Assembly: GCA_016342685.1 (NCBI GenBank)
Contig: JAEINU010000008.1
Coordinates: 79,443-143,442, forward strand
DNA from: Bacteroidales bacterium
Lineage (GTDB): Bacteria > Bacteroidota > Bacteroidia > Bacteroidales > UBA12077
Reading direction: 5' to 3'
Length of the DNA: 64,000 nucleotides
Position numbers and translations under genes: made by a program. Shown here piece by piece: positions 4,241 through 63,928 of this stretch (position 1 is the stretch's first letter; each line of letters starts with the position of its first letter). The notes beneath the pieces are model-generated. The model was not told where the DNA came from. It did not search any database and was given only the letters and a program-made list of their open reading frames with translations.

Positions 4241-4368
4241 TAACATGTGTTCAACAATAATGCGGGGTTTTGGTGGTTTGCTGACAAAATATTATCTTCG
4301 TTAAGTTGTTCAGCGGGGGACAATGTAACAAGGCGGAAACCCGCACAATTGTTAACACAGGACCGTTA
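4241..4368 (+). repeat. attC-like site S1
   Basis: First site. It is preceded by CGCCCAACTTA, whose complement (GTTATAAGT...) is not found as a cassette start in the window, so the preceding unit begins further left or is degenerate. Arms about 4245-4267 and 4340-4359. It opens cassette c1. Same subclass as S4, S5, S12 and S13. Confidence 0.88.
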
Positions 4369-4386
4369 CCAATAATGCTTTAAAAA

Positions 4387-4953
4387 ATGAAAAAGACACT
4401 TTATACTATCTTGATAATTATATTTTGTTTTTTGAATGTTAAATCCCAATCAATATTGGTGAAAGGACACGTCATTGAATATAAAAGTAAAAAGCCTATT
4501 GGTGAAATAAATATTCGAATTTCAGATTCTTCATTAAATGAAAACAGTGTCTTTAGTGACAGTGAGACTGGTTATTTTGAACTTTTATTAGATGACAGGT
4601 TATTATTGGATTCACTAATATTGACAGGACTTACAAATTATAGACCGCTTGTAATTACAAATATACCAAATGACAAGGATGTTATAAATTTAGATTCAGT
4701 TCCTATGTTTGGAGAATTATATTGGGAAGCTATTCCGATGTGGAATTTTCAATGTCATCCTTTAAATATTTTTTGTAAAGTCAGAGAATTCTTTTACGGT
4801 AAGAAAATTGGAAGAAATATAAAAAGAATAAATAAAGAAGCAGATAAGAATGCTTCTGAGTGTATTTTCTTTTACGAAAATGAAAATTATCTATTTGACT
4901 ATAGTGAATATATAATAGAACTTGATTTAAAATATCCAGTTAGGAAAGAATAA
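4387..4953 (+). CDS. c1: secreted protein with carboxypeptidase-regulatory-like domain
   Basis: A 188-residue protein with a signal peptide (about residues 1-20, MKKTLYTILIIIFCF...), so exported. Residues about 24-80 (VKGHVIEYKSKKPIGEINI...) fit the beta-sandwich carboxypeptidase-D regulatory-like domain common in Bacteroidota envelope proteins. The C-terminal half is unassigned. It is the sole gene of cassette c1. The start codon lies 22 nt after the GTTA boundary and the closing arm begins at the stop codon, so the arms (4365-4387 and 4955-4977) make up nearly all the untranslated sequence. No promoter is apparent. Confidence 0.8.
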   Translation: MKKTLYTILIIIFCFLNVKSQSILVKGHVIEYKSKKPIGEINIRISDSSLNENSVFSDSETGYFELLLDDRLLLDSLILTGLTNYRPLVITNIPNDKDVINLDSVPMFGELYWEAIPMWNFQCHPLNIFCKVREFFYGKKIGRNIKRINKEADKNASECIFFYENENYLFDYSEYIIELDLKYPVRKE

Positions 4954-4973
4954 TTTTTTTAAAGCACAATTGG

Positions 4974-5103
4974 TAACATGCGTTCAGGTTCAATGCGGGG
5001 TTTTGGTAGTTTAGCATAGTTTCTTTACTTTTATGTTTCATTATCAACGGGTGATAATGAAACAGGGCGGCAAACCCGCACTAAACCTAACGCAGGACCG
5101 TTA
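4974..5103 (+). repeat. attC-like site S2
   Basis: Closes c1 (ATTGGTAAC against the c1 start GTTACCAAT) and opens c2. Nearly identical to S3. It contains an inner perfect 13-bp stem TGTTTCATTATCA / TGATAATGAAACA around ACGGG (5033-5063). Confidence 0.9.
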
Positions 5104-5126
5104 TAGGTAATTTAATTTTTTCAGAT

Positions 5127-5813
5127 ATGATAGTTATTGCAGAATTTGATATTATTAATCCATTTGGAATACCAATTACTGATTGGATTCAATCGATTGG
5201 AGCTCTTGTTGCAATTCTTGGAGCAATTTATGCCTTTGCAAAATTGTTTATTAAAGACAAAGAAAAACAAATTCAAATTAATAGTTTGACTAAGATTGCT
5301 GAAGAGAGTGAAAACCAATCTGTTTATTTGGCTTATCAATTGGACCAAATGATTGAAAGTAATAAAATTCAAACTCAGTACCTAAGTCTATTACAAGAAT
5401 CTACTTCAGCAAATAAAGAAAAAGTGGAAATTGATAAAGAGAGAATAGAGCTTGAAAAGAAACAAAGGAGAATATCTTTAAAACCATATTTGCAATTTTC
5501 AACAGGTTTGGTAACACCAGAACTTCATAAACTGAACTTAATTAATAAAGGAGAAAAGGCTATAATAACCAATTTTGAAGAATTAGAAAAAAACTCTGTA
5601 AATCATAATATCAAAGGCTTGATAGGTAGTGAATTAAGTAAAAACCAGAGAATCAGTGTAATTTTTAAACCGAAACCATTTGGTCTTATGATAAGCCAAT
5701 GTTTTGTTAATATAAAAGTTATTCTTGAAGACATTGAAGGAAACAAGTATTATCAATTGATAACAGGTCCAGGGAATAGAATTAAGGTCGATTCACCAGT
5801 TGAAATTGAATAA
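5127..5813 (+). CDS. c2: membrane-anchored coiled-coil protein, unknown function
   Basis: A 228-residue protein with one N-terminal membrane segment (about residues 20-45), then a charged coiled-coil region (about 46-115) and a C-terminal globular part rich in beta-type residues. I do not recognise the family. It fills cassette c2 alone. The stop codon is followed directly by the closing arm 5814-5832, which pairs with 5100-5118 at the cassette start (interrupted at positions 10-11). The start at 5127 is the first ATG after the boundary. Confidence 0.75.
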   Translation: MIVIAEFDIINPFGIPITDWIQSIGALVAILGAIYAFAKLFIKDKEKQIQINSLTKIAEESENQSVYLAYQLDQMIESNKIQTQYLSLLQESTSANKEKVEIDKERIELEKKQRRISLKPYLQFSTGLVTPELHKLNLINKGEKAIITNFEELEKNSVNHNIKGLIGSELSKNQRISVIFKPKPFGLMISQCFVNIKVILEDIEGNKYYQLITGPGNRIKVDSPVEIE

Positions 5814-5828
5814 AAATTAAACAACCTA

Positions 5829-5958
5829 TAACATGCGTTCAGGTTCAATGCGGGGTTTTGGTGGTTTAGTATAGTTTCATTACTTTTATGTTTCATTATC
5901 AACGGGTGATAATGAAACAGGGCGGCAAACCCGCACTAAACCTAACGCAAAACCGTTA
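5829..5958 (+). repeat. attC-like site S3
   Basis: Closes c2 (ACCTATAAC against GTTATAGGT) and opens c3. Same subclass as S2 and S16, with the inner 13-bp hairpin. The bases before GTTA are AAACC instead of the common GGACC. Confidence 0.9.
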
Positions 5959-5995
5959 TGGGTAATTTAAAATTGCAACGAAAATTTTACAGATA

Positions 5996-6745
5996 ATGAA
6001 TCGTGTTTGTTTTTTACTAATTATAATTTTTCATTTTAGCAATGTGGTTTATGGACAAATTATTACTGGAACTGTTTCCTTTGATAATTATACTGAACCT
6101 GCAGTTGGAGCAGCAGTTGTATTTAAAGGTACAACTATTGGAACGTTTACTGATGCATACGGTAATTATAAGATAGATGCAGACTCGACACATAAAACAT
6201 TATGCTTTAGCTATATTGGTTTTGAGACGGTTGAAATTGATATTGAAAATAGAATCTTAATTGATGTCAGTTTAAAGAATGCACCATTAACACTTGACGA
6301 TTTCATAGTTACAAGCTTTAGGAAAACAAAAAAGCGTCCAGCTTTAGGGCATACTAATGGACAAGTAGACTCAATTCATGAAATTCAAAACTATTCTGAA
6401 ACTCATTTCACCAGGACTGAAAAAAGCTGGTTAGAAACAACTGAATATTCTAATTGGTCAAAGTTCATATTTGACAATATTAACTACCCTGATAGTGCAT
6501 TTAAAAATAATGTAAATGGTAATGTTTATGCGCAATTTGTCATTGATACTGTTGGGAGAATAAGAGAATTAGAAATTATAAAAGGTATTGACAAAGCTCT
6601 TGACCAAGAAGTCTATAAAACATTGTTGTTAATGCCTAAGTGGACGAAGCAGGAATTGAAAAATTATAGTCCTATCAAAGGGAAAAAGTATTCAGGTATT
6701 TACATTTTGCCTGTAAAATTTAAAATAAAGGAAGAACAATTTTAA
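5996..6745 (+). CDS. c3: exported protein with CarboxypepD_reg-like and TonB C-terminal domains
   Basis: A 249-residue protein. It has a signal peptide (about residues 1-20), a carboxypeptidase-regulatory-like domain (about 22-100, ITGTVSFDNYTEPAVGAAVVF...FTDAYGNYKI) and a C-terminal TonB-like domain (about 160-245, NINYPDSAFKNNVNG...PVKFKI). This pairing is common in Bacteroidota periplasmic proteins of uncertain role. It is sole cargo of c3. Its stop codon lies inside the closing arm (6737-6757), so coding and recombination-arm sequence overlap. It shares the first domain type with c1. Confidence 0.85.
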   Translation: MNRVCFLLIIIFHFSNVVYGQIITGTVSFDNYTEPAVGAAVVFKGTTIGTFTDAYGNYKIDADSTHKTLCFSYIGFETVEIDIENRILIDVSLKNAPLTLDDFIVTSFRKTKKRPALGHTNGQVDSIHEIQNYSETHFTRTEKSWLETTEYSNWSKFIFDNINYPDSAFKNNVNGNVYAQFVIDTVGRIRELEIIKGIDKALDQEVYKTLLLMPKWTKQELKNYSPIKGKKYSGIYILPVKFKIKEEQF

Positions 6746-6753
6746 ACAACCCA

Positions 6754-6881
6754 TAACACGTGTTCAACAAAAATGCGGGGTTTTGGTGGTTTGCTGACAA
6801 AATATTATCTTCGTTAAGTTGTTCAACGGGGGACAATGAAACAAGGCGGAAACCCGCACTATTGTTAACACGGGACCGTTA
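6754..6881 (+). repeat. attC-like site S4
   Basis: Closes c3 (ACCCATAAC against GTTATGGGT) and opens c4. By eye its 128 bp are identical to S5 and S13. Confidence 0.92.
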
Positions 6882-7765: not shown

Positions 7766-7893
7766 TAACACGTGTTCAACAAAAATGCGGGGTTTTGGTG
7801 GTTTGCTGACAAAATATTATCTTCGTTAAGTTGTTCAACGGGGGACAATGAAACAAGGCGGAAACCCGCACTATTGTTAACACGGGACCGTTA
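7766..7893 (+). repeat. attC-like site S5
   Basis: Closes c4 and opens c5. By eye identical over 128 bp to S4 and S13. Confidence 0.92.
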
Positions 7894-8258
7894 TAAATAA
7901 GGCGCGAAAAAACTAAGAATTGAGCAATTCTGCTCTTTTTGACAATCATAAAATTTAAGAGTGTTTTTTTACGATCTGTTAGTTTCTCAATTAGCAAAGG
8001 TAATTTGCTTTCTGATAATGTAAGAATAGTTTATTCGTACTGTTTGATACTGAATTTATCGAGATTGGTTCGGCAGGTTTGATAGATAAATAATTTAGAA
8101 TTCCAACGCGCTTTTGCCCTAACGGGCAAATTGGTACCTAAATTTAATCCATTATCAGCTTTGCTGATAATGGATTAAATCAGATTAACATTTATTAATT
8201 AATACAGTTTTTACAATAAAAAATATTAAATTGGTATTTGTTAAGAAAATGCTTTGTT
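7894..8258 (+). promoter_or_regulatory. Long structured leader of defence cassette c5
   Basis: About 365 bp without a gene. It starts with the extended arm (AAATAAGGCGCG), later carries AATTTAGAATTCCAACGCGC followed by a small hairpin TTTGCCC-taac-GGGCAAA, then a perfect 18-bp inverted repeat with a TTT loop (8142-8159 and 8163-8180). The block around 8085-8130 is closely matched in the c10 leader and partly in c8 and c17. It probably carries a cassette-borne promoter or RNA regulator; I cannot place a transcription start. Confidence 0.55.
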
Positions 8259-10841
8259 ATGAAGAAATTAAAAATGAACTTCAAATTAGATTCTATTTAT
8301 TTAAAACTATTTATTCTAATAAATTTTATATATTACTTATATGTCAAATTAATACCAACTGAATGGATTAAGAAGAATGTAGTACTCGAAATTTTCCATA
8401 AACTGTTGCCAAATTTAAAGGATGAAATATTGCTAATTACTTTTCTTATAATAATATTGATAAGTCTTAGTTACAAGTCAATAAAATACAAAACAAAACC
8501 AAGTTTATTTACAACATTCTTAAACCTAATCTTTTTCACAATATATTTTATGGAAAGAGTCAGGCTTTATAATGAATTTGAATTGTACAAATTAAGTTTT
8601 ATTAATATAGCAATATTTGATTTGATCATTCTTTCATTTCTGATGTTATTAATCTTTAAATGGAATTTATATTTCATTGCAAGTAATTTGAAAGTAGAAA
8701 AGTCGGAATATTTGCCTTTTGTTAAGGATAGTATCTATTTAAATAATTCAAATTCAGAACTTAAAGTTGATATATTTAATAGAACTGACTTTGTAAAGAA
8801 AATAGCAAAAAAACTAATAGGAATTCAAGCTAGTGGATCATTTAATTTAGGGATACAAGGATCCTGGGGTAGCGGGAAAACGTATATGTTAAATGCTTTA
8901 TTGAAGGAATTAGATGGAAAAGTTATCTCAATTGAGTATAATCCATGGAAATCATTTGAAGATAAGAATATTGTAAAAACTTTTTTTGACACATTATCTC
9001 AATCATTAAAATTATATGATGAAGAGATAATTCATAATATTAATCAATACTCTTCTTATCTTTTAGATTCATTGGATATCAGTGTTTGGAATATTAGCTT
9101 AAAGAAAAAAGTGGAATTAGGAAAGCTTTATGAAAACATAAATACACGCATTGGAAAACTTAAAAAACCTGTTGCAATTTTTATCGATGATTTGGATCGT
9201 TTAGACAGAAACGAGATTATGGATATTTTTAAATTAATTAGAAATACTGCAAGTTTTAGCAATATTATCTTTATTACAGCATTTGATTTAACGTATTTGG
9301 AAGATACTGTTTTTAAAAGTAATGGTAATCAAATGTATAATAGTGAAAAGTCTGATTATAATTATCTTGAGAAGATATTTCAAGTAGTTTTTACATTGCC
9401 AATAGTTGATAATTTTACAATGCATTTTGAATTAAAACAAAGTTTATTAAAAGGAAGTACTATTATTAAGCAAAAGTATTCTGAAGATGTCGAAAAAGTT
9501 ATTAACTATTCTGAAAAACTAATCTTTCGGTGTATAAAAAACTATAGGGATATAATAAGATTTTCAAATCAATTTTGTCTTGATGTTGAATTTATTGATT
9601 CTGAAGTTGACTTTGGTGATTTCTTTTTGTTTGAATTGTTGAAATACAAATCCCCCAAAATTATTGATGAAATTTATTTTAATAAAAAAGTATTAACAAG
9701 ATCTAATCAAAGCGATAGTTTCAAATTAAATATCCAAGAACTGGAAGCTAATTTTCCAGAATTATATATTGAAATTCTTGGACATTTATTTAATCACCAA
9801 AATCCTACTTCAATTAATAATGTAAATAATTTTTATAAATATTTTTCATTATCCATATTTACTCATGATATCGGTTTTGAAGAATTTAAACAAAGGGTAT
9901 TTGATTCTAATGAGAATATAATAGAACTAATTGATAGCTGGATTAGTCGCAATGTTAAAATAGACCAAATTATTTATAAGTACAAATCATTTATCGATTC
10001 TACTTACTTTGAATTTGATGAAAAAGAAAAAATACTAAATACTTTTATTCGGTTTCTTAGTGGCTATAAGTATATGATCATAAGCATTCTTAAAACTGAT
10101 GATTACTATGAACAAATACGATACTTTGCAGAATCATTATATATTCAAGCTAATAAATTAATTATTACTAAAGAGTTTCAAAGAGTATTTTTAGACGGAT
10201 ACTTTAAAGCCCCAAAAACAATATATGATTTTTATGTCTTTCACTTTTTAAAAGTTGATAAGAGAAATAATTCTGAAAGATTTAGCTGGCTTGAAGAAAA
10301 ATCTATTAAGAAAAAATTGGAAGAACTTTATATCAATTATGTAATACCGCATCCAAAATTAGAACTTTTTATTTTATTAGTTAATTATCGTTGTTTAAAT
10401 ACAAATAGTAGTTACATGAAACAGAGTACAATAAAACGTATATTTGATTTTGAAAATGTAAAGTATCTGGTAGAAAACACTAAAGATTTTGATTATAAAG
10501 TTGAAAATTATTGTATTGAACGCAGATTAGATTATATCTCTTCAGAAGAGACTCTACGAGAAATATTTAAAATAATGGATATTGTCTCTGGAATAACGGA
10601 TAGAGATTACATGGAGTTAAGTAAACTTATAAGAGAATTTCATTATAGAGAAATAAAAATGGAGCTGGCATTTAGAATTCTTTTTTCCAATTTTAATGCA
10701 ATTTTTATTGAATCAAATAAAGATGAAGAGAAGTTTTGGGATGTAATAAATACTAAAGTTTTAGATCCTGTAAATGATCGATTTTATGGTGAATTTATCT
10801 CTTATATTAAAAACAGTACATTAATAAAAACAAAAGATTAA
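8259..10841 (+). CDS. c5: KAP-family P-loop NTPase (membrane-associated)
   Basis: About 860 residues. Four N-terminal membrane helices are followed by a KAP NTPase domain with Walker A in SWGSGKT (about residue 200) and Walker B in AIFIDDLDRLD. KAP NTPases sit at the inner face of the membrane and occur in several antiphage systems. The long C-terminal region has no recognisable domain. I chose the start at 8259 (MKKLKMNF); an in-frame ATG at 8238 would add 7 residues. It is the only gene of c5. A defence role is inferred from the family and from sharing its leader with other defence cassettes. Confidence 0.85.
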   Translation: MKKLKMNFKLDSIYLKLFILINFIYYLYVKLIPTEWIKKNVVLEIFHKLLPNLKDEILLITFLIIILISLSYKSIKYKTKPSLFTTFLNLIFFTIYFMERVRLYNEFELYKLSFINIAIFDLIILSFLMLLIFKWNLYFIASNLKVEKSEYLPFVKDSIYLNNSNSELKVDIFNRTDFVKKIAKKLIGIQASGSFNLGIQGSWGSGKTYMLNALLKELDGKVISIEYNPWKSFEDKNIVKTFFDTLSQSLKLYDEEIIHNINQYSSYLLDSLDISVWNISLKKKVELGKLYENINTRIGKLKKPVAIFIDDLDRLDRNEIMDIFKLIRNTASFSNIIFITAFDLTYLEDTVFKSNGNQMYNSEKSDYNYLEKIFQVVFTLPIVDNFTMHFELKQSLLKGSTIIKQKYSEDVEKVINYSEKLIFRCIKNYRDIIRFSNQFCLDVEFIDSEVDFGDFFLFELLKYKSPKIIDEIYFNKKVLTRSNQSDSFKLNIQELEANFPELYIEILGHLFNHQNPTSINNVNNFYKYFSLSIFTHDIGFEEFKQRVFDSNENIIELIDSWISRNVKIDQIIYKYKSFIDSTYFEFDEKEKILNTFIRFLSGYKYMIISILKTDDYYEQIRYFAESLYIQANKLIITKEFQRVFLDGYFKAPKTIYDFYVFHFLKVDKRNNSERFSWLEEKSIKKKLEELYINYVIPHPKLELFILLVNYRCLNTNSSYMKQSTIKRIFDFENVKYLVENTKDFDYKVENYCIERRLDYISSEETLREIFKIMDIVSGITDRDYMELSKLIREFHYREIKMELAFRILFSNFNAIFIESNKDEEKFWDVINTKVLDPVNDRFYGEFISYIKNSTLIKTKD

Positions 10842-10948: not shown

Positions 10949-11077
10949 TAACATCACATCACCAGTAATGCGGGGGTTTTGGCGGTTTGACAAAGTTTTA
11001 CTATCTTCGTTTTCGTTCAACGGTCTGACAAAGTAGAGCAGTGGAAACCCGCACTACATGGTATGTGAAGACCGTTA
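10949..11077 (+). repeat. attC-like site S6
   Basis: Closes c5 (CCCAATTTATAAC against GTTATAAATAAGG, with GGCG also matching) and opens c6. Subclass with the direct repeat GGTTTGACAAAG / GGTCTGACAAAG in the centre, shared with S9, S11, S17 and S18. Confidence 0.88.
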
Positions 11078-11120
11078 GCCCCCATTTTAGGCGAAAAAAT
11101 TGAAACATTAATCTATTTTT

Positions 11121-11813
11121 ATGAAACAGTTATTAATTATTTTTTTTGCATTTCTTTTAACATGTAATAATTCGAACGACAAATTGATAATGACAAAAGT
11201 TGGAGAAGAACTTGGTGTTTCTGGTACGATTGGATTTTATCGTTCTGAGACAGAATACTCCGAATTTCATAACTATAAAAAGTATTTTACTTGGCAGTTG
11301 GATTGCCCAAGGTTATTCGAAGTTTTTGATTCTACTTCAATACGAAAAGCTTTTGCTTATAGAACTTATATCAAATTATCTGAACTTGACAAGAAAGAAT
11401 ATGAAGCTATTAAAGTTGAATTCAAAAATGATATTAATTCGGAACTTGATACAGCAAGCTTTTTTAAAATGTCATATTTAGAAAAAATTTATAAATCTGA
11501 GATGATTGTTAGAGAATATATGAAAGCATTAAAAGATGAAAACTTGGACTATATTGAAAAGGCTTTTGATAAAACTAAATTTGGATATGCAGTTTTAGAA
11601 GTTGATAGTATCAATAATACATTCTTGGAATTTGCCAATGGAAAATTTGAAGAAAGTAGATTGATGAACTGGGCAATAATTGAAGATGCTGGCTCAAAAT
11701 ATAAACTTTTAGTCTTTTTGACTAATTCTGAAAATAATTATGGTTCTAAATTTCAGTTTGCACTTCATGATTCTTTAAAAACTGAAAAAAATATAGTAAA
11801 GATCTCTTATTGA
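11121..11813 (+). CDS. c6: lipoprotein of unknown function
   Basis: A 230-residue protein with a lipoprotein signal (MKQLLIIFFAFLLTC, lipid-modified Cys about residue 15), so membrane-anchored and periplasmic or outer-membrane facing. The mature part is acidic and mixed alpha/beta with no family I recognise. It is sole cargo of c6. The closing arm (GGCTAAC) matches the cassette start for 7 bases, then resumes after mismatches. Confidence 0.75.
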   Translation: MKQLLIIFFAFLLTCNNSNDKLIMTKVGEELGVSGTIGFYRSETEYSEFHNYKKYFTWQLDCPRLFEVFDSTSIRKAFAYRTYIKLSELDKKEYEAIKVEFKNDINSELDTASFFKMSYLEKIYKSEMIVREYMKALKDENLDYIEKAFDKTKFGYAVLEVDSINNTFLEFANGKFEESRLMNWAIIEDAGSKYKLLVFLTNSENNYGSKFQFALHDSLKTEKNIVKISY

Positions 11814-11828
11814 AATTAAAACAGTGGC

Positions 11829-11957
11829 TAACAGCATTTCAAACTACATGCGGGGGTTTTGTGGTTTGCTGACTAAATATTATCTTAGTAAAGTTGTTCA
11901 ACGGGGGACAATGAAACACAGCGGAAACCCGCACGATAGCTTAAATGCGGACCGTTA
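11829..11957 (+). repeat. attC-like site S7
   Basis: Closes c6 (GGCTAAC against GTTAGCC) and opens c7. Its last base can be the A of a possible ATG start at 11957. Confidence 0.88.
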
Positions 11958-12665: not shown

Positions 12666-13343
12666 ATGATAAAAGGAAGACAATACAAAGGGAAATTATC
12701 ACCAGAACAAGCTGAAAAAGGGATTGGTTTATCAGTTGAGAATGCCAATGGACTTCTTGATGATGCTAATTTGTTGTTTAATCATAACAGATATGAAAGA
12801 GCTTTTTCACTTGCAATTCTTGCAATCGAAGAATCGGGAAAGCCCAGTATTATTAGAAGTATTCTACTATTAGATGACCCAAAAGCTCTAAATAACGAAT
12901 GGAAGAATTATCGAAAACACACAGCTAAAAATACTGAATGGATTCTACCTGATTTAGTTGCTAAGGGAGCAAACAAATTAGAAGATTTTAGCTCGCTTTA
13001 TGATTCTAATAGTGAACATGGACAGATTCTCGACGATTTGAAGCAACTATCATTTTATACTGACACTTTTTCAAAATGTAAATGGAGTATCCCAAACAAT
13101 GTTGTATCAAAGGAATTAGCTGAAATGATTCTTAAGGTTGCACGAATATTAGTTCCTGCTGCTGACTCTGCTATGACAACTGCTCCTGAATTAGAATTGT
13201 GGATAAAACATCTAAAACCAATCGGTAATGAAAATATGCTTGAAATGAAACAAGCTTTGATTAATTGTTATAATGAAGCTGAGCAAAAGGGCATTTTAAA
13301 AGGAGATAAGACAACTCAGGAGTTAATTAATTTTGTATTATAA
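12666..13343 (+). CDS. c7 gene 2: AbiV-like HEPN protein
   Basis: A 225-residue all-helical protein resembling the HEPN_AbiV family (abortive infection): LLDDANLLFNHNRYERAFSL then AILAIEESGK, and a conserved-looking NYRKHTAKN segment near residue 80. AbiV-type proteins arrest phage growth, and HEPN folds are often RNases. A canonical R-x4-6-H pair is not clearly present, so RNase activity is uncertain. The closing arm (GCTCCATAAC) matches the c7 start over 10 bases. Confidence 0.78.
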   Translation: MIKGRQYKGKLSPEQAEKGIGLSVENANGLLDDANLLFNHNRYERAFSLAILAIEESGKPSIIRSILLLDDPKALNNEWKNYRKHTAKNTEWILPDLVAKGANKLEDFSSLYDSNSEHGQILDDLKQLSFYTDTFSKCKWSIPNNVVSKELAEMILKVARILVPAADSAMTTAPELELWIKHLKPIGNENMLEMKQALINCYNEAEQKGILKGDKTTQELINFVL

Positions 13344-13358: not shown

Positions 13359-13485
13359 TAACAGCTGTTCAAATTCAATGCGGGGTTTTGTAGTTTGCTG
13401 ACTAAGTTTTATCTTAGTAATGTTGTTCAACGGTGGACAATGAAACAGGGCGGAAACCCGCACAAAATTTAACAGCGGACCGTTA
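13359..13485 (+). repeat. attC-like site S8
   Basis: Closes c7 and opens c8. Arms read CAGCTGTTCAAATTCAATGC and its counterpart around CCCGCACAAAATTTAACAGC. Related to S15 in the arms and to S7 in the centre. Confidence 0.88.
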
Positions 13486-13857: not shown

Positions 13858-15399
13858 ATGCAAGCTATTAGATTAAAAAATTTAAGAAGTTTTCTTGACA
13901 CAGGAGTAGTTCCTTTGAATAAAATAAATGTATTTGTTGGGCAAAATAGTTCAGGGAAGAGTACATTTTTAAGAACTTTTCCACTATTGCGACAATCAGT
14001 ATTAAGAGATACCAGGGGGCCTATTCTTTGGTATGATGATACCCTAGTTGATTTCGGAAGCTATGAAGAAGCAAAAAGCAGACATGCTAATGACAAAGAC
14101 GGTATTCATTTTGGTTTTAGAATTTCTTTAGATCCACAAAGGGGAAGATACTATTATTATGATACAATAAGTCTTAGAAATGAATCAATAGCTGATATTG
14201 ATATTGAAATTTTTGAGCATAATAAGAAAAATTACATTGGTAAGATTAGAATATTAATCGAAGACCATGAAATATTAATTGAAGCAAATAATATTGGTCA
14301 AGTTAAATCATTTCAAGTAAACGGCAGTAATATGTTGTTTACTGAAGGAACCCATAATTTGATTAAATATGATACAGTTGGCCTTATACCTCAGATGTTA
14401 ATTTTAACAAAAACTGAAAAACGCATAAATCGAGAATACTATCTTCAAAAATGTCGCGAAATAATTAAAAGTATTATTGGTAAAAGGCTTAAAAATGAAT
14501 ATCGTATTACTAGAATGATTACTGATCTTACTTTTGATAAAAAAGAGAACATTCTAAATTCTTTAAAACATGAGTCATCAATTCTTACTTGGGTCAAAAA
14601 GATAAAAAACTGGAATTTAGAAACTGCTGAATTTATTCAATTAAACAACCTAATTGTAGCGCATTATACATCTTCTATTTTAGGGGTTATTGATAATAAA
14701 CTTAAAACATATTTTGATGGTTGTCAATACATAGCACCAATTAGGGCAAAAGCAATAAGGTATTACAGACGTCAAGATTTATCTGTATCAGAGATTGATG
14801 CATATGGCGATAATTTACATATGTTTTTGGATAACTTAAATAAAAAACAAATGGAGAGTTATCAAAATTTTGTTAAAGATGTGTTTGATTTTATACCTTC
14901 AACCGAATCTTCTAAGGGGCATATTACTATTAATATCGAAGATCAAAATGGTGAAAAATTTAATATCACAGATTTAGGTTTTGGTTATTCGCAAATTTTA
15001 CCAATAATTACAAAATTATGGTATACTTTTTCAGATAATGAACGACCGAGAAATCCTTGGGAACCGAGAGAAAAAAATATTACGTTACTAATAGAGCAAC
15101 CTGAACTACATTTGCATCCAGCTATGCAAGCTCAATTAGCTGATGCATTTATTTTAGCAACAGAACATGCAAAAAGTAATGATGTCAATCTAAAATTAAT
15201 AATTGAAACGCATAGTTCAGTAATTATTAATAGAATTGGAAGACGAGTAATTGAAAAAAAGCTTGATTCATCAGCGGTTAGTGTTACATTATTTCAATTA
15301 GATGCAGAATTAAAGAATAGTACAATTAAGTCTACAAACTTTAATGAAAATGGTGTTTTAGTTAATTGGCCAATCGGCTTTTTTGAACCAAATAACTAG
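13858..15399 (+). CDS. c8 gene 1: SMC/OLD-like AAA ATPase
   Basis: A 513-residue ABC/SMC-type ATPase of the kind found in OLD-like and other antiphage systems. Walker A is GQNSSGKST (residues 28-36), Walker B with catalytic Glu is in LLIEQPELHLHP (about residue 410), and a switch-His segment IETHSS follows. A DUF3696-like C-terminus is possible but not certain. It overlaps the next gene by 17 nt, which indicates translational coupling. The start follows a weak AAAAGG-type ribosome-binding sequence. It likely binds or clamps nucleic acid and controls the partner nuclease. Confidence 0.85.
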   Translation: MQAIRLKNLRSFLDTGVVPLNKINVFVGQNSSGKSTFLRTFPLLRQSVLRDTRGPILWYDDTLVDFGSYEEAKSRHANDKDGIHFGFRISLDPQRGRYYYYDTISLRNESIADIDIEIFEHNKKNYIGKIRILIEDHEILIEANNIGQVKSFQVNGSNMLFTEGTHNLIKYDTVGLIPQMLILTKTEKRINREYYLQKCREIIKSIIGKRLKNEYRITRMITDLTFDKKENILNSLKHESSILTWVKKIKNWNLETAEFIQLNNLIVAHYTSSILGVIDNKLKTYFDGCQYIAPIRAKAIRYYRRQDLSVSEIDAYGDNLHMFLDNLNKKQMESYQNFVKDVFDFIPSTESSKGHITINIEDQNGEKFNITDLGFGYSQILPIITKLWYTFSDNERPRNPWEPREKNITLLIEQPELHLHPAMQAQLADAFILATEHAKSNDVNLKLIIETHSSVIINRIGRRVIEKKLDSSAVSVTLFQLDAELKNSTIKSTNFNENGVLVNWPIGFFEPNN

Positions 15400-16483
15400 G
15401 AATATGCTGATATATTTATCAAAATCATTATTTGATGTAGGTTTTTCTAAAGAACATCAAAAGCGAATTAATAGAGCATTAGAGAATATTTTAAGAAGTA
15501 ATTGGGAAGGAAAGCATTTAGTGCATGCTAATTTTGATACTTTAAATAAACTCAGAGAGCAAAAATTAAGTAACGATAGTAAAAGTGTTATATTAAATAT
15601 CTGCAATAACTATTCCTTACTTGATTATAGTAAAATAAAACATTTTGTTTATGTAGTTCCTGAAGAGAATACCTTAGAATTAAAAATAGAAAATGATATC
15701 GAAAAATATTGTATTTCTGTTGACTATTTTCAAAATTCAGATTTATTACAGGAATCTAGAATTTTGTGTGAGCATTTGAATGATGCAAAGTTATTTCAAC
15801 TTATTTGTAATTACTTTGTTAAGAAAGAAAATATAGGAAATATTGCATTGCGTTTTGAACCTGAGCTAGGTGGTGGAGCTACAATCTGTGATTGTTTTGA
15901 AAAGCATGTAATTAATAGAAATAAATTCTGTTTAGCATTTAGTGATAATGACAAAAGATATCCTAATGCACTAATCGGTGGCACTCTTGAAAAGTTAAAT
16001 GCAGTTGACATAAATGGAAATATTTTTTGTAAAATAATTGAGATTGATTCCCATGAGATTGAAAATTTGGTTCCTTTTAATTATCTTAATGATATTCGAA
16101 CTATACACCATCAACAAAAAGGAATAAATTTTATTGAAAGTATTAGAAATTCATCATCTTGTGAATTACTAAAGTATTTTGACATTAAAAAGGGTATTTG
16201 TAAAAAGCAAATCAATAATTGTCCTGAATATCTTAGTTATGCAGAACAACTTATTCCGTTTTGTGAGACTATAGAAAATATATCTGAAATAGAAGATAAA
16301 GCTGAAGGATTTAGTGTTATACCTCCTATAGGGAAAATAGTAAAGGACTTTATAGAGAAATCAGATCTTCTAAATTCTAAAGAGCCAGAATTTCTTTCTT
16401 TTCAAGAATTAGAATGGGATAAAATAGGATCAAACTTTTTATATTGGGCATGTTCAAGGAATTTAGAAGCATTAAATATATAA
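15383..16483 (+). CDS. c8 gene 2: partner of the ATPase, possible TOPRIM-like nuclease
   Basis: A 366-residue protein. I do not recognise a named family, but residues 157-165 (RFEPELGGG) followed by SDND at 187-190 after a hydrophobic strand resemble the Glu-Gly and Asp-x-Asp metal sites of TOPRIM nucleases. In OLD-type systems a TOPRIM domain is fused to, or encoded next to, such an ATPase. An alternative start at 15404 (MLIYLSK) removes the gene overlap. The TOPRIM reading is inference from spacing and motif shape only. Confidence 0.6.
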   Translation: MNQITRNMLIYLSKSLFDVGFSKEHQKRINRALENILRSNWEGKHLVHANFDTLNKLREQKLSNDSKSVILNICNNYSLLDYSKIKHFVYVVPEENTLELKIENDIEKYCISVDYFQNSDLLQESRILCEHLNDAKLFQLICNYFVKKENIGNIALRFEPELGGGATICDCFEKHVINRNKFCLAFSDNDKRYPNALIGGTLEKLNAVDINGNIFCKIIEIDSHEIENLVPFNYLNDIRTIHHQQKGINFIESIRNSSSCELLKYFDIKKGICKKQINNCPEYLSYAEQLIPFCETIENISEIEDKAEGFSVIPPIGKIVKDFIEKSDLLNSKEPEFLSFQELEWDKIGSNFLYWACSRNLEALNI

Positions 16484-16602: not shown

Positions 16603-16730
16603 TAACACGGCTTCAGAAAAAATGCGGGTGTTTTTGCGGTCTGACAAAGTTTTGTTACCTTCGTTTTGGTTCAACGGTTTGACAAAGTAGAGCAGTGGAA
16701 ACCCGCACTCTTCCTAAGCCGGGACCGTTA
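16603..16730 (+). repeat. attC-like site S9
   Basis: Closes c8 (CGCCCAATTTGTAAC against GTTACAAATAAGGCG) and opens c9. Nearly the same as S11. The 119 bp before it are the c8 tail, with GGTTTTTCATTGG as in other defence-cassette tails. Confidence 0.9.
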
Positions 16731-17754: not shown

Positions 17755-17882
17755 TAACATGCAATCACCATCAATTCGGGTTTTCTTGCCGGTCTGACAA
17801 AGTTTTGTTACCTTCGGTTTCAATTATCGGTCTGACAATTATTGCGAGAAGCTCCCAAATAAATGGTATTGCAAGACCGTTA
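17755..17882 (+). repeat. attC-like site S10
   Basis: Closes c9 (CATATGCTAAC against GTTAGCATACA, mismatch at 10-11) and opens c10. Divergent subclass shared with S14: arms TGCAATCACCA / TGGTATTGCA, and TTCGGG / CTCCCA in place of GCGGG / CCCGC. Confidence 0.85.
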
Positions 17883-18345
17883 TAAATAAGGCGCGAAAAA
17901 ATTAGAAAGTAAATTTTAACACAGTTTGTTAAGTAAATAATTCATGCATCTTTTTTCACATTCTGACAGTTTATGTAAGTTCGAAACTTTATTACATTTT
18001 GATAAAGTAATTTATTTTATTCGTAGCGGTTTGATAGTAATTTCATTAGGATTGTTCGGTAGGTTTGATAAAAAATAATTTAGTATTCCAGCGCGCTTTT
18101 GCCCTGTCGTGCAAATTAAATTTAAACACATTAAAGGCTTCGCCTCTAAAGAGTTTAAAATTGAAATAGCAACTTAAGTTTAAATCTATAGTTAGTAACT
18201 TTTTATCCTATCTGCTTTTTTTGTTTAAAATTTTATTAATTTCACATGACAGAAAAATTCATGTTCGTAGAGTATTTTTTTGCACTGAATTAACTCTGTA
18301 GGAATTCAGGTTAAAAGCCTGTTTTAATTAAAACCAATTTATATT
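17883..18345 (+). promoter_or_regulatory. Long structured leader of defence cassette c10
   Basis: About 460 bp without a gene. It carries an extended arm (AAATAAGGCGCG), then AATTTAGTATTCCAGCGCGC with TTTTGCCC, closely matching the c5 leader, then an imperfect hairpin around 18120-18160 with AGGC-ttc-GCCT at its tip, in the place where c5 has its 18-bp hairpin. Conservation between otherwise unrelated cassettes suggests a shared control element. Confidence 0.55.
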
Positions 18346-19404
18346 ATGACTAAAGAAGAAATCTTATTAAAAAATTTGGAAGAAACTAAAAATAGTCTCA
18401 GTACTGATAGATTAGATATGTCCTTTGGTGAAATTATGAGTATGTACGAGAGAAAAGAAATTATAATTGACCCAATTTTCCAAAGACTTTTTCGATGGAC
18501 AGAATATCAACAGACAAGATTTATTGAATCACTTTTATTGGGTATTCCTATTCCACCGATATTTGTTGCGGAAGATAAGGATGGTCGTTGGGAACTCGTT
18601 GATGGTTTACAAAGGATATCAACAGTTTTTTCATTTTTTGGTTTACTCGAAAAATTACCTGAAAAAAATGATTGGATTTTGAAACATGGAGAGTTAATCC
18701 CAGATTTTGAAAATTTTGGTTGTAAGGATTTACCTTTAAAACTTCAGTTGAATATAAAGAGAGCTGTATGTAGAATTGAGATTGTTAAATGGAATAGTAA
18801 ATATGACATGCGTTATGAACTATTTAATAGGTTGAATACCGGCGGAGCAAGACTTACAGACCAAGAAATTAGAAATTGTATTTTCCGCGGTGTATCGAGC
18901 GACTTTAATTTGTTCTTAAGTGAAGAAGCTAAACAGCAAGCATTTATCGATTTGATTGGTCCAACAGAGAAGCAAGTGGAAGAACTATATCTTGATGAAT
19001 TAGTTTTACGATTTTGTGCTTTATACAATAATGGTGAAAATGTAAGAGAAAATATTTCTGAACATATGACTTCTTTTATGAAAAAGATTGTTACTGCTCC
19101 AGAAAGAATTGATGAATTCAAAAGTATTTTTAACCGAACAATTACACTTTTAAAACCAATTGGGAAAGAAGCATTTCGTGGCTCAAATAATGTGCTTTCT
19201 ACAAGTTTGTATGATGGAATTTCAATTGGGATAGCCCAGAATATTGAAAAATATGAAGAAAAAAATACAAGCTATTTGATTGATAAAATTAATCAATTAA
19301 AAGGTGACTCTGATTTTAGAAAAGCTTCGGGTTCTGCTGCGAATAGTAAAACAAGAATATTGAAAAGACTACAAGTTGCTCATGAATTATTCGAAAGAGA
19401 ATAG
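18346..19404 (+). CDS. c10 gene 1: DUF262 (ParB/Srx-like nuclease fold) protein
   Basis: A 352-residue protein of the DUF262 family, the N-terminal module of GmrSD-type restriction enzymes. Signature segments are visible near residues 42-90 (IDPIFQRLFRWTEYQQ, ELVDGLQRISTVFSF), including the DGLQR motif linked to NTP-dependent nuclease activity. A classical GmrD HNH part is missing. The following gene encodes a HEPN protein 2 nt later, so the two form a compact operon. A role against phage with modified DNA is possible by family analogy only. Confidence 0.88.
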   Translation: MTKEEILLKNLEETKNSLSTDRLDMSFGEIMSMYERKEIIIDPIFQRLFRWTEYQQTRFIESLLLGIPIPPIFVAEDKDGRWELVDGLQRISTVFSFFGLLEKLPEKNDWILKHGELIPDFENFGCKDLPLKLQLNIKRAVCRIEIVKWNSKYDMRYELFNRLNTGGARLTDQEIRNCIFRGVSSDFNLFLSEEAKQQAFIDLIGPTEKQVEELYLDELVLRFCALYNNGENVRENISEHMTSFMKKIVTAPERIDEFKSIFNRTITLLKPIGKEAFRGSNNVLSTSLYDGISIGIAQNIEKYEEKNTSYLIDKINQLKGDSDFRKASGSAANSKTRILKRLQVAHELFERE

Positions 19405-19406
19405 AT

Positions 19407-20033
19407 ATGAGAATGTTGCTTGCTGAAATTGAAGAAGATATTAATTGGAGAGTTTCTGAGATTGCTAACATTAAGACAATTCCCGTAAGATATAATTTGT
19501 TAGAAGCTCACAAACAGACTTTAACGTTATATTCAGTTCCATCAATATATGCACTTTGGGAAGGTTTCCTTAAAAATACATTTGAGCTTCTAACCAATTT
19601 CATAAATAAAATTGGTTTAGATTCTAAAACAGTTCATTTAAATTTACTTACACATGCAATTGAAAACAAATGTAAACTAGGGAATGAAAGGAAGTATTTT
19701 GAGAAGAAGTTGAACTTGGTAGAAATGTTTTCAGAAATTTATGATTCTCCTTTACAAATTGAACAAGGAATTCCAACTGAATCAAATGTAAATTATAAGG
19801 TTACAAATAAAATTTTAGAACGATTTAATATTCAAGAACTGGATATAAGTTTTGAAAAACCATTGAACAGGCTTTTGCTTTTTAGAAATAAAATTGCACA
19901 TGGAGAGAACTCAATAAAAGTAACACGAAATGATATAAATGAATTTTCACTTCTCGCTGAGAATCTTATGTGTGAAATATTGATATTAATTGAAAGTTGT
20001 TTAAAAAATAGTGATTATAAAAAAGTTACTTAA
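19407..20033 (+). CDS. c10 gene 2: MAE_28990-like HEPN protein
   Basis: A 208-residue helical protein of the MAE_28990/MAE_18760-like HEPN type. Near the C-terminus LLFRNKIAHGE gives the R-x4-6-H signature of HEPN RNases. It begins 2 nt after the DUF262 stop, indicating coupled expression. DUF262-plus-HEPN pairs recur in defence islands, and the HEPN protein would be the RNA-cutting effector. No toxin activity can be shown from sequence alone. Confidence 0.82.
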   Translation: MRMLLAEIEEDINWRVSEIANIKTIPVRYNLLEAHKQTLTLYSVPSIYALWEGFLKNTFELLTNFINKIGLDSKTVHLNLLTHAIENKCKLGNERKYFEKKLNLVEMFSEIYDSPLQIEQGIPTESNVNYKVTNKILERFNIQELDISFEKPLNRLLLFRNKIAHGENSIKVTRNDINEFSLLAENLMCEILILIESCLKNSDYKKVT

Positions 20034-20209: not shown

Positions 20210-20337
20210 TAACACGGCTTCAGAAAAAATGCGGGTGTTTTTGCGGTCTGACAAAGTTTTGCTATCTTCGTTTTGGTTCAACGGTTTGACAAAGTGGAGT
20301 AGTGGAATCCCGCACTATTCCTAAGCCGAGACCGTTA
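20210..20337 (+). repeat. attC-like site S11
   Basis: Closes c10 (GCGCCCAATTTATAAC against GTTATAAATAAGGCGC) and opens c11. The 20034-20209 stretch before it is the c10 tail, with TTGCC-tttt-AGGCAA and CTAAATTATTTCGTTTTTCATGG-type sequence as seen before S1 and S9. Confidence 0.9.
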
Positions 20338-24218: not shown

Positions 24219-24241
24219 ACACATAATATTATTTTGGCGCA

Positions 24242-57491: not shown

Positions 57492-57492
57492 C

Positions 57493-59888: not shown

Positions 59889-60013
59889 GCTAATAAATGT
59901 GTGACTTTGCAAATATATGCTAAATAATCATACTAAAATAGTGTGTGTGATTATTGATTTTTTAGGACATTTGGTTTTATATTTGTGTACTTTTGGATTT
60001 TGCGATTATAGAA

Positions 60014-61894
60014 TCAAATAAAAAAATTAAGGAATTAAAAACTAAAATTGATGGCTTAGAAATTTCAAAAACAAAGTTAGAAGAGAAATTAGACACCAAA
60101 GTTATAGAAATGCAAGAAAAGGCTTGGGTATTGAAAAAGAAATATGAGCCATTTTTTAAACCTGCTTTTATTGGTTTTATGGGTGGCGGTGAGAGTTTTT
60201 TTAATAAATGTCTAAACGAGCAAACAAACAGTTCTAAACTAATATCTGACAAAGAAATAAAAGATAAATGCCGCAAAATTTTTAATGACAATATTAAATC
60301 TTATGATCCAATTGTAGAATTTAATTTCGATGAACTCTCTGAAAAGGAAACTTCGGATATTTTAGAAACAAAAATTATCGGTAAAGAAGATATCGAGATT
60401 GCAAAACTAATACATCAGCTTGAAAATAGTGATTGGGTAAAAGATGGTGTTGATTATCTTCAAAAAACAGAAAATAAATGCCCATTCTGTCAACAAACTA
60501 TAAATTCTGATCTGCGAGAAGAAATCGAATCATTTTTTGATGAAACTTATGAGAATCAAAAAAGAGAATTAAATAGATTTATTGCCAGTTATAAAAGCTA
60601 TGTTTTTGGTTTAATTTCCGAATTACAAATTCTTACAAGTCGAGAAATATCTATTATAGATTTCAGAGAACTAAACGATAAAATTGAATTACTGCAGGAG
60701 CTTTACAAGAATAATCTGAACAAATTAGAAACAAAACTAAAAACTCCAAGCATTCCAACAACGATTGATAGTTTAAAATTTATTTTAAAAGACATATCAA
60801 TTCTGATAAGTATTTATAAGAAAGCAGTTGAAGAAAACAACAAGACAGTTCTAAATATTATAACAGAAAAAGACAATTTAAAATCTGAGATTTGGCGTTT
60901 TATCATTAACTTATTGGATGTTGATTTAAAATCATACAATTCAATAAAACAAGGTGTTGGTAAAGCAATTAAAGGTATTTCAGAATCAATAGAAACAACC
61001 AAAGAAGAAAAGATTAAACTTGAATCACAAGTTAAAGAGAAAGAATCAGAAGTTACGAGTGTTAAGCCAACGGTAAATGAAATAAACAAAATTCTGAAAT
61101 TGTTTGGCTTCACTAATTTCAGTCTTGATGAAGCTGATAAAAAAGGTTTTTATAAGGTTATAAGAGAAGATGGCTCTGAAGTTAAGGAAACATTAAGCGA
61201 AGGTGAATCTACCTTTTTAACCTATTTGTATTTCTATCATATGTTGAGAGGTAGTACAACCGACACAGGAATTGGGAAAGATAAAATTGTAGTAATTGAC
61301 GACCCTATTTCAAGTTTAGACAGCAATGTACTTTTCATTGTGTGTAACTTAACAAAAGAATTGGTTAGAGATGTAAAAAACAAAACGAATGGAATAAAAC
61401 AGATATTTATTTTGTCTCATAATGTTTATTTCTTCAAAGAAGTAACCTTTAAAGGTAATGGTAACAATAAATGGAAGGAAGAGGCATATTGGGTTATTAG
61501 AAAACTTGATAATAAAACAAAGATTAATGAACACGGACAAAATCCAATAAAAACAACCTATGAATTATTGTGGCGAGAATTAGATGATATAGAATCAATT
61601 AATTCAGCTACAATTTTCAATACACTGCGTAGGATTTTGGAATATTATTTCAATATTCTTGGTGGATTAGATTATGAAAAAGCAATAAGTGAATTTGAGG
61701 GTGAGGAACAGATTATTTGCAAATCATTAATTTCATGGATAAATGATGGTTCTCATTTTATAAATGACGATTTGGTTGTTGATTCAGAACTTGAAAATAT
61801 TGAGAAATATTTAAAAGTATTTAAATTAATATTTGAAAGATTAGGGCATGAAAGTCATTATAACATGATGTTAACTAAAAATATAAATTCATAA
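60014..61894 (+). pseudogene. c17: RloC/PrrC-like ATPase, 3' fragment
   Basis: Continuation of the gene begun at 26599: about 626 codons with long coiled coils around a zinc-hook-like CPFC (ENKCPFCQQTINSD), ABC signature LSEGEST, and Walker B IVVIDDPISSLDS with D-loop, then a helical C-terminal effector region. In RloC the zinc hook and C-terminal nuclease sense DNA damage and cut tRNA. An open frame starts at a TTG (59993), but the fragment lacks Walker A and should be inactive. Confidence 0.85.
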
Positions 61895-62089: not shown

Positions 62090-62218
62090 TAACCCAACAT
62101 CACCAGATAATGCGGGGGTTTTGGCGGTCTGACAAAGTTTTGCTATCTTCGTTTTCGTTCAACGGTCTGACAAAGTAGAGTAATGGAAACCCGCACTACT
62201 GGTATGTTTAAATCGTTA
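62090..62218 (+). repeat. attC-like site S18
   Basis: Closes c17 (CACCAACAGCTAAC against GTTAGCTGCAAGTG, 35.7 kb apart because of the prophage) and opens c18. Almost identical to S17. Confidence 0.9.
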
Positions 62219-62240
62219 GCGGTAACTCTAAAAATCGAAA

Positions 62241-62927
62241 ATGAAGATATTTAGCTTTTTAAAACAACAGACAAAAACAGACCTGATACCTGAGCATGTA
62301 ATCAGACGGGTAGTTGATTATATGCCCGATTTCTATAAAACCCATAGACAATATATAAACTGTCTTGAATATATAAATAATAGAGAGTGGGAACTTGCCC
62401 TTGATAGTTTGATAGAACTTGCAGATGAGACTGAACATTACTTTTCGGAAGAGTTTTGGATTGGACTTGCTAACTCTGCTGATAAAATGAAACTGAGTGA
62501 TAAAGCAAAATATTGTAGGAAGCAAATTAAAAGAAATGCACGAGACATAAAATCAAATATACCATTTGGTTGGACAACAATAAAATATGATAACGATCAT
62601 TTTCAACATTACATTTCTGAAAAACTTAAGGAAGAGTTAGCGTCTGAAAGACGAGTAAAAGATAAAGTTAAGGAATTGATAAAAAAAGATGGAGTGCATT
62701 TAAAATCTCATGGTCGTAGTGGATTTTTATATATTGCAGAAAATGGAAAAATAGCTGAAATAGAGTTTGAGTTAGGAGTAAATGGACTTATTTTATATTT
62801 TAACAATATGACAAATTGGTCTTTACCTATAAAACAGTCAATTACTAAAGAAGAAAAACAAGGTATAAAAAGCAAAATCATTAATTGGGCTGCAGAAACA
62901 AAAAATGCAATTGAGTTTTATCATTAA
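62241..62927 (+). CDS. c18: soluble protein of unknown function
   Basis: A 228-residue protein with no signal peptide or membrane helix. The N-terminal half (about 15-95) is helical with a TPR-like look (YINCLEYINNREWELALDSLIELADETEHYFSEEFW); the C-terminal part is alpha/beta. I do not recognise it. Resembles small immunity-type proteins in size, but this is only an impression. Sole cargo of c18; the closing arm (GAGCAACCGC before TAAC) pairs with the start over about 12 bases. Confidence 0.7.
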   Translation: MKIFSFLKQQTKTDLIPEHVIRRVVDYMPDFYKTHRQYINCLEYINNREWELALDSLIELADETEHYFSEEFWIGLANSADKMKLSDKAKYCRKQIKRNARDIKSNIPFGWTTIKYDNDHFQHYISEKLKEELASERRVKDKVKELIKKDGVHLKSHGRSGFLYIAENGKIAEIEFELGVNGLILYFNNMTNWSLPIKQSITKEEKQGIKSKIINWAAETKNAIEFYH

Positions 62928-62944
62928 TGAAGTCGAGCAACCGC

Positions 62945-63071
62945 TAACACGTAATCAACAGATAATGCGGGAGTTTTGTGTTTTGCAAGCTTTTTACTAT
63001 CTTCAAACTTTATTAACGGGTGATACTGAAACGCGGCGAAAACCCGCACTACTGTTATTACGGGACCGTTA
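62945..63071 (+). repeat. attC-like site S19
   Basis: Closes c18 and opens c19. Forms a subclass with S20: centre TTTGCAAGCTTTTTACTA, GGGTGATACTGAAACGCGGCG. Confidence 0.9.
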
Positions 63072-63096
63072 CGGGTAATACTTTTAGGGAGAAAAT

Positions 63097-63789
63097 ATGA
63101 AACGAATTCTTTTTATTGGATTGTTAATCACAATTTTTTCTTGTCAAAATGAGACAAGCAATGAAATTGATAAAGAAATTGAAGTTATAAATGACATTTT
63201 CTTACAATTACCTGAATATATTCAGTTTTACAATTTTAGTTTACCAATTCCACCACCGCCGCCACCAATTTATAATGAAAAAGGAGAATTTGTTGGTATT
63301 GACACGGTTGCACAGCTGGAAATACTTGATAAAATTGAAAAAGAGTTTAAAGCTCGGAATATAGATACTTCTAAGATTGTTCTTGCAGTTTTTGATACTT
63401 TAGTAAATAATGACCATTTTGAGCTTAATGAAAGTTATGCAGTTGATACAATTTTTAATAATTACCATTCCATCACCAAATCAATAATTGAAAATGAAAA
63501 AGCTCCAATGAAGTTGGTGCTTAATGATATTGTTGAAACAGGAAAATATGAATTAAAATCTTATTCAGAATTTCCATCAGGTAGAGAAATATTCAGTAAA
63601 AAGTATGATTTCAATTTTAGCGGTGTTATAACTTTATCAAGAGTTTATTTTAACAATAGAAATGACAAAGCAGTAATTTTTTGTGATTATTGGTGTGGTA
63701 TTGATTGCTGGACAGGTAATGCATTATTTCTTGAAAAAATTGATGGTAAATGGAAAATTGTGAATTCAGAACTATTATGGATTGCCTAA
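63097..63789 (+). CDS. c19: lipoprotein of unknown function
   Basis: A 230-residue protein with a lipoprotein signal (MKRILFIGLLITIFSC, Cys 16) and a Pro-rich stretch (PIPPPPPPIY, about 51-60). The C-terminal half has a Cys-containing segment (FCDYWCGIDCWTGNALFLEK) typical of exported Bacteroidota proteins I cannot name. Sole cargo of c19. The stop codon lies within the closing arm (63785-63805), which pairs with 63068-63088 over 19 of 21 positions. Confidence 0.75.
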   Translation: MKRILFIGLLITIFSCQNETSNEIDKEIEVINDIFLQLPEYIQFYNFSLPIPPPPPPIYNEKGEFVGIDTVAQLEILDKIEKEFKARNIDTSKIVLAVFDTLVNNDHFELNESYAVDTIFNNYHSITKSIIENEKAPMKLVLNDIVETGKYELKSYSEFPSGREIFSKKYDFNFSGVITLSRVYFNNRNDKAVIFCDYWCGIDCWTGNALFLEKIDGKWKIVNSELLWIA

Positions 63790-63801
63790 AAGTACAACCC
63801 G

Positions 63802-63928
63802 TAACATTGCTTCAACAGATAATGCGGGGTCTTGGTGGTTTGCAAGCTTTTTACTACATTTAAACTTTCTTAACGGGTGATACTGAAACGCGGCGAAATC
63901 CCGCACTACTGTTAAGCAAAAAACGTTA
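63802..63928 (+). repeat. attC-like site S20
   Basis: Closes c19 and opens c20, which runs off the window. The c20 start GTTAGCAATAATGCCGCGA has the GCCGCG-type extension seen in defence-cassette leaders, and 63929-64000 holds no gene start I can support. The bases before GTTA are AAAAC. Confidence 0.88.

Follow-up and report, generated by a model that had tools for sequence, protein, structure and literature searches.

Chromosomal integrons and superintegrons of the Vibrio type are tandem arrays of gene cassettes in one orientation, with a GTT core in their sites and an attI site at the integrase end of the array. According to PMC2727003, folded attC sites have an unpaired central spacer, extrahelical bases, of which the G in L'' is conserved, and a terminal structure that varies, and PMC11014356 describes the site as complete only in the excised circle, its R' box being split at G^TT. 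The insertion specific to the integrase IntI is called essential for integron function in PMC8138268, though it is not fully conserved in its subgroup. For Bacteroidetes, the account in PMC9024848 names only In0 elements from earlier reports and, later, one complete integron in Bacteroidetes proper, that of Salinibacter ruber, identified by IntegronFinder 2.0. Here, a stretch of 64,000 nucleotides (nt) from the genome of a Bacteroidales bacterium (GCA_016342685.1; 4.77 Mb in 54 contigs), referred to as the window, was analysed. It corresponds to C5:79443–143442, where C5 is contig JAEINU010000008.1, and its end is the contig end. As judged from sequence, the window very probably is an integron-like cassette array, for which a neighbouring tyrosine recombinase other than IntI likely captures the cassettes at an attI-like site behind its own gene.

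Between positions 4241 and 63928, the window contains 20 imperfect palindromes of the form TAAC...CGTTA, 127–130 nt in length and all on the plus strand. These attC-like sites, numbered 1 to 20, are found at 4241–4368 (128 nt), 4974–5103 (130 nt), 5829–5958 (130 nt), 6754–6881 (128 nt), 7766–7893 (128 nt), 10949–11077 (129 nt), 11829–11957 (129 nt), 13359–13485 (127 nt), 16603–16730 (128 nt), 17755–17882 (128 nt), 20210–20337 (128 nt), 20947–21074 (128 nt), 22129–22256 (128 nt), 23432–23561 (130 nt), 24092–24219 (128 nt), 25172–25300 (129 nt), 26220–26348 (129 nt), 62090–62218 (129 nt), 62945–63071 (127 nt) and 63802–63928 (127 nt). Site 1 is the end of the first cassette, whose attI-like start lies 2.8 kb left of the window, and site 20 is followed by 72 nt up to the contig end. 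The number, length and single orientation of the palindromes agree with a first-pass annotation made from the letters of the window, which had also divided the array into 19 units of one or two plus-strand genes; this division does not hold for the unit 26348–62090, an AAA_13 cassette split by a Mu-like prophage.

A search pattern covering both stem halves has 91 matches in the genome and at least one match in 20 of 25 genomes of the family, while its reversed control has no match in any of the 25 genomes searched. With a profile built from the window sites, 188 matches (E ≤ 1e-3) were obtained in stretches from 14 genomes of the genus, all of them within six genomes and 98 of them in this genome, on 19 contigs (stretches fetched: the window, L005 and L066–L085). 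On every stretch, the matches share one orientation. In 24 of the 188 sites, one end has no TAAC or GTTA nearby, and two of the remaining 164 have impossible lengths; site anatomy was counted on 156 sites of 122–135 nt, folding energy on 124 units, and shared cassettes on units shorter than 6 kb. Rfam and tRNA searches of the window gave no matches, and neither did a search of viral contigs with one exact site pattern. A lone site (G000:C37:221912–222014, stretch L080) is located about 1.5 kb from the gene of another tyrosine recombinase (431 amino acids, C37:220192).

In most units, start and end are complementary to each other. In 107 of the 127 units of the genus, the 4 nt following GTTA at the unit start (the N4 word) are the reverse complement of the 4 nt preceding TAAC at the unit end; 2000 shuffles gave 5.7 such units on average and 16 at most. 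Pairing is perfect in 18 of the 19 window units, the exception being unit 11077–11828, and the earlier suggestion that each unit is a self-contained cassette by the complementarity of its own ends is thereby borne out. When the flanks on either side of a single site in situ are compared, only 8 of 162 pairs are complementary. Because ends that lie a gene apart pair with each other, a complete folded site would arise only in the excised circle, as is described for integron attC sites. Imperfect intergenic palindromes are also what repeat families, which are common, would provide, and the sites might be taken for a family similar to repetitive extragenic palindromic (REP) elements or miniature inverted-repeat transposable elements (MITE), or for terminators between genes, with cassettes that do not move. 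We consider this extremely improbable, as it does not explain why ends separated by hundreds to thousands of bases pair in a unit-specific way, nor the single orientation on each stretch or the predicted attI.

In its anatomy, the folded site is of the attC type. Relative to the R' consensus GTTRRRY, GTTA is kept and the bases after it vary (51 kinds of N4 words at the unit ends); the Vibrio set in PMC11014356 does not follow RRRY exactly either. The arm after TAAC consists of one unpaired base, six paired L bases, one extrahelical base and five further paired bases, whereas the opposite arm has five unpaired bases before GTTA, so that the unpaired spacer is 1 versus 5 nt. All six L bases are paired in 111 of the 156 sites (shuffled arms: mean 5.8, maximum 15), and 36 different kinds of L boxes occur among the sites of the genus. 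The extrahelical base is a C on the top strand, hence a G on the bottom strand, in 153 of the 156 sites. Sequence and calculated folding thus reveal an unpaired spacer, an extrahelical base and a variable terminal part, and the likeness to Vibrio-type integrons, in terms of PMC2727003, comprises R and L boxes, the unpaired central spacer, the extrahelical base on the R''–L'' arm and the variable terminal structure. The claim of attC-type folded sites was upheld. Weighing against a simple parallel with attC, the calculated energy favours the bottom strand in only 7 of the 124 units. The single extrahelical base was also considered as a trait of other genera and dropped, since by eye some of their sites have a mismatch instead; it is claimed for this genus only. 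The motif AACGG is conserved in the loops of sites from the window and from congeners, flanked in some of them by short complementary arms.

The best IntI-like match of the genome is a tyrosine recombinase of 366 amino acids encoded at C5:75443–76540, 2.9 kb left of the window, by a gene that reads towards the array. Residues R222, K247, H311, R314, H337 and Y346, which we take to be the catalytic ones, are invariant among 14 aligned integrases. Since the first cassette ends with CTTA-TAAC, the array is predicted to start with the word GTTATAAG. This word occurs three times in 84 kb of the contig, and two of the copies are found directly behind the integrase gene (C5:76613 and C5:76645). The copy at C5:76645 lies 104 nt after the last integrase codon, where the core reads ...ATAAACAA-GTTA, and continues with TAAGG as in other cassette starts. 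If this is read as attI, the array begins at C5:76645, left of the window, and the sequence before position 4241 belongs to the first cassette, about 7 kb long. The first-pass annotation had expected a site-specific recombinase to the left of the array and an intI-like gene with attI in that direction; the tyrosine recombinase and an attI-like site behind it are indeed found there, and only the assignment to IntI fails.

A similar arrangement is seen in congeners. In genomes G000 (this genome), G022, G017, G023 and G009, GTTA is found 101–104 nt behind the last integrase codon, preceded by stretches that resemble one another and end in ATAAACAA, ATAAAAACAA or a comparable sequence, and in G020, G014 and G016 a different common stretch precedes GTTA at 162–166 nt. 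An attI at such distances is unconfirmed in G010 and G007; behind the integrases of G006 and G008, the contig stops early or GTTA is absent. Integrase and sites share one contig in six genomes (G000, G022, G017, G013, G010 and G007), and in the stretches fetched the sites are located downstream of the integrase and none upstream. In several draft genomes the contig stops about 70–250 nt behind the integrase, i.e., near attI, which is expected if assemblies break at a variable array. Comparison of five proteins encoded upstream of the integrase with stretches of 12 congeners gave one match only (29% identity, G022), and thus no fixed chromosomal place is demonstrated. Unlike in Vibrio-type integrons, the attI-like site is positioned behind the 3' end of an integrase gene that reads towards the array. 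In this respect, the locus is similar to archaeal integrons, in which, according to PMC9668308, attI is found directly downstream of the integrase gene; however, the same source ascribes the IntI-specific domain to archaeal integrases, and the integrase described here does not possess it.

In an alignment, the IntI-specific insertion spans 48 columns, chosen as filled in IntI and nearly empty in array integrases, which hold 43–48 residues in 13 IntI proteins versus 0–5 residues in 40 array integrases. Likewise, the alignment with the Vibrio integrase (2a3v) breaks at residues 196–242, where 47 residues stand against three in the present integrase. With the IntI model TIGR02249, this integrase scores 190 bits (190 to 205 bits for four congeners), which is below the curated cut-off of 265, and no match over the cut-off was found in this genome. 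Given the missing insertion and the score below the cut-off, the array does not belong to the superintegrons known for IntI. The earlier description of an integron-like array is retained, with a recombinase other than IntI. In a phylogenetic tree, which includes 26 of the 80 loci from named genomes described below (those with a chain step), IntI proteins form one clade (support 1.0) that holds no array integrase. The array integrases themselves are interspersed with other tyrosine recombinases and thus do not group as a single clade.

The best NCBIfam model for the integrase is NF040815 (XerA), with 193.6 bits (193.6, 198.4, 198.7 and 219.6 bits for four congeners), in each case under the cut-off of 220, and archaeal XerA and Xer are among the best solved structures (5hxy, 4a8e) in a listing that was filled by one domain, so that the lack of other folds there carries no meaning. 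According to PMC8371274, XerA resolves chromosome dimers, whereas the integrase described here is encoded next to a cassette array and possesses an additional N-terminal domain. A core closest to XerA and Xer recombinases, and the missing insertion that PMC8138268 deems essential, would suit a double-strand site-specific shuffling system, shufflon- or Xer-like, for which the hairpin is irrelevant. Such a system is highly improbable here, considering that pairing is kept at freely varying positions (36 L boxes, 51 N4 words), which is needless for the recognition of a duplex, and that the sites are all in one orientation.

A match to IntI over the cut-off is present in 105 of 395 genomes of the phylum and in only one of 247 genomes of the class. 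The idea that IntI is rare in the whole phylum was therefore dropped; its rarity holds for the class. Matches to the family of the present integrase, which count family members and not arrays, occur in 119 of the 247 genomes of the class (E ≤ 1e-90), 109 of them with a match that starts no later than model position 43, and in 52 of 148 genomes of the phylum (E ≤ 1e-65). Some genomes from other classes of the phylum (G025, G030 and G122) have a true IntI plus a match to this integrase family. Plasmids of Acinetobacter and Klebsiella encode recombinases matching this integrase; the Klebsiella ones listed are 43% identical over about residues 111–364, and the N-terminal domain is outside the match. 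A search of phage records with the integrase gave no match at 1e-45.

In structure models, residues ~1–75 of the integrase form a separate domain, which also differs from that of the integrases in Vibrio-type integrons. Among 177635 distinct chain sequences, the top match to a profile of 19 relatives is the SMARCAL1 HARP domain (4o66; E-value, 0.0039), which ranks fourth with a second profile (E-value, 0.37). The Pfam HARP family (PF07443) matches 6 of 60 relatives at E ≤ 1. Foldseek analysis of the N-terminal domain also ranks 4o66 first, at a weak E-value of 0.11 and with nothing at 0.001, whereas by Z-score XPB (6.0) is ahead of 4o66 (4.7, rank 22). Based on this weak likeness of sequence and modelled fold to HARP of SMARCAL1 and the N-terminal part of XPB, a HARP/XPB-like domain for structured DNA may be regarded as a lead. 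In those proteins the domain belongs to helicases, while here it would be at the front of a tyrosine recombinase.

Many other Bacteroidota have the same layout of integrase, attI-like site and array. Named genomes were scanned with 14 integrases, keeping the best 80 of at least 566 relatives, of which 50 loci with at least 1000 nt behind the integrase match were used; among the matches listed are Flavobacterium, Kaistella, Algoriphagus, Pedobacter, Rufibacter, Marinilabilia and many metagenome-assembled genomes. A blind rule, accepting the first AGTTA 70–140 nt behind the integrase match, gave a candidate attI in 22 of the 50 loci, compared with 28 of 275 windows of the same size elsewhere. 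The complement of the 8-nt word of the candidate attI follows in 19 of these 22 loci, versus 27 of 448 for words taken from other loci. Walking from a GTTA behind the integrase by complement words and arm pairing yielded 47 sites in 26 of the 50 loci (altered-word control, 0.67), with at least two steps in seven loci, three steps in four, and none in 24. In 21 of the 26 loci, the GTTA from which the walk set out is 77–125 nt behind the match, and 35 of the 47 sites are 120–131 nt long, though 48–193 nt were allowed. Across genera, the length of the sites stays near 126 nt despite differing loops, several of which hold repeats of ~17 nt such as ACAGTTTTGTGCTCCG. The plasmid NZ_CP041688.1 of Chryseobacterium sp. 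SNU WT5 (L166) encodes an integrase of the family followed by a similar attI stretch (then GTTG) and three strong sites of 126–127 nt, with one further site on the other strand. This plasmid also bears an IS110 transposase and a group II intron gene. In a plasmid of C. oryzae (L167), a near-identical attI stretch is followed by no chain step.

These loci also bear on the possibility that the window is an ordinary integron array, whose IntI is encoded elsewhere in the genome or has been lost, and that the neighbouring recombinase is unrelated to it. The attC anatomy of the sites and the frequency of true IntI in other classes of the phylum (105/395 over the cut-off) are compatible with it; nevertheless, the cut-off is passed nowhere in this genome and in 1/247 of the class, and in many genera members of this integrase family are followed at comparable distances by an attI-like site. 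An ordinary integron is thus very unlikely, and capture by the neighbouring recombinase is the reading followed below.

In this genus, a promoter is predicted within the loop of the sites. That of site 1 spans 4270–4298 on the plus strand, with TTG at 4270–4272 and TATCTT at 4293–4298. After the 156 genus sites were grouped into 25 clusters at 75% identity, TAnnTT was found at loop offset 24–29 in 24 of the clusters (shuffles: mean 2.2, maximum 7), preceded at 17–23 nt by TTG in 22 of the 25 (shuffles: mean 2.7, maximum 8). The motif resembles Bacteroidota promoters (TTG/TTTG and TAnnTTTG). As the clusters are related, it represents conservation and not independent proof. A promoter general to the sites of the phylum was rejected, because TTG-N17–23-TAnnTT[TCG] is found in 2 of 35 sites of the named loci, the same as in shuffles. 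The predicted promoter distinguishes the sites of the genus from those of Vibrio-type integrons; in Vibrio, transcription starts are described by PMC11014356 in gene-less cassettes and, once, inside an attC site.

Under the reading preferred here, the integrase would bind the folded single strand of a circular cassette, cut at G^TTA and join the cassette to attI, so that the newest cassette comes first, while recombination between two sites would excise cassettes. Recognition of structured DNA, which in known integrons is given by the IntI insertion, might be taken over by the HARP/XPB-like N-terminal domain, a step proposed with less confidence. In this genus only, the site of each cassette would transcribe the next cassette from the predicted loop promoter TTG-N17–23-TAnnTT. 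Taken further, and with slightly less than even confidence, the class may have an integron platform of its own in place of IntI, in which a recombinase of XerA stock with a HARP-like domain uses folded single-stranded sites without the IntI insertion, and in which the genus sites also serve as promoters, so that no single Pc is needed.

Several cassettes contain defence-like genes. The first cassette has a type III DNA methyltransferase gene on the minus strand (853–2868), adjoined left of the window by a REase_III-like gene (L005:18295–19422). On the plus strand, the genes encode a KAP family P-loop NTPase (8238–10841, PifA-like defence model), an AbiV-type HEPN protein (12666–13343), an AAA_15 ATPase together with a protein without a family match in a two-gene cassette (13858–16483, AriA/NsnB-like defence models), a GmrSD_N protein and a HEPN protein in another two-gene cassette (18346–20033, NsnA and PD-T4-2_A defence models), and a NOV_C domain protein (24242–25162), which matches part of the TmtA defence models. 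The plus-strand gene at 5996–6745 encodes a protein with a family match to CarboxypepD_reg-like and TonB C-terminal domains. Of 25 cassette proteins compared with Pfam, ten are without a match at 0.01. A repeated stretch, AAATAATTTAG..TTCCA.CGCGCTTTTGCCC, is found early in two cassettes (8088–8132 and 18073–18117), and a similar one behind attI in L005.

The Mu-like prophage, approximately 33 kb in size (~26.9–60.0 kb of the window), splits the AAA_13 cassette gene into a first part on the plus strand at 26527–26955 (profile positions 14–103) and a remainder on the same strand at 59993–61894 (profile positions 100–713), and the outer ends of the cassette still pair. Its genes (28278–59783) include those for transposase, transposition ATPase, portal, terminase, head protease, major head, sheath, tape measure and D12 methyltransferase proteins. 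No clear target duplication emerged from a simple scan of the prophage ends. Within the genome, a 567-nt cassette is present in three identical copies and a 780-nt cassette in two, on different contigs and with different cassettes next to them. Only three pairs of units from different genomes share at least 250 nt, at 68–76% identity. The recurring cassettes and the scarce sharing between genomes speak for turnover, and assembly effects may play a part.

In the open-access literature on integrons in Bacteroidota or with other integrases, searched by titles and abstracts (subscription papers and preprints were outside this scope), no such platform is described. A survey based on IntI would miss it or show at most clusters of attC sites without an integrase, and the one complete integron of Bacteroidetes given in PMC9024848 stands against a family of integrases present in 119 of 247 genomes of the class. 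If this integrase recombines folded sites, the IntI insertion is dispensable, and the origin of single-strand cassette recombination becomes testable. The findings also suggest that the cassette pools are large and include defence-like genes, and that Chryseobacterium has versions on plasmids.

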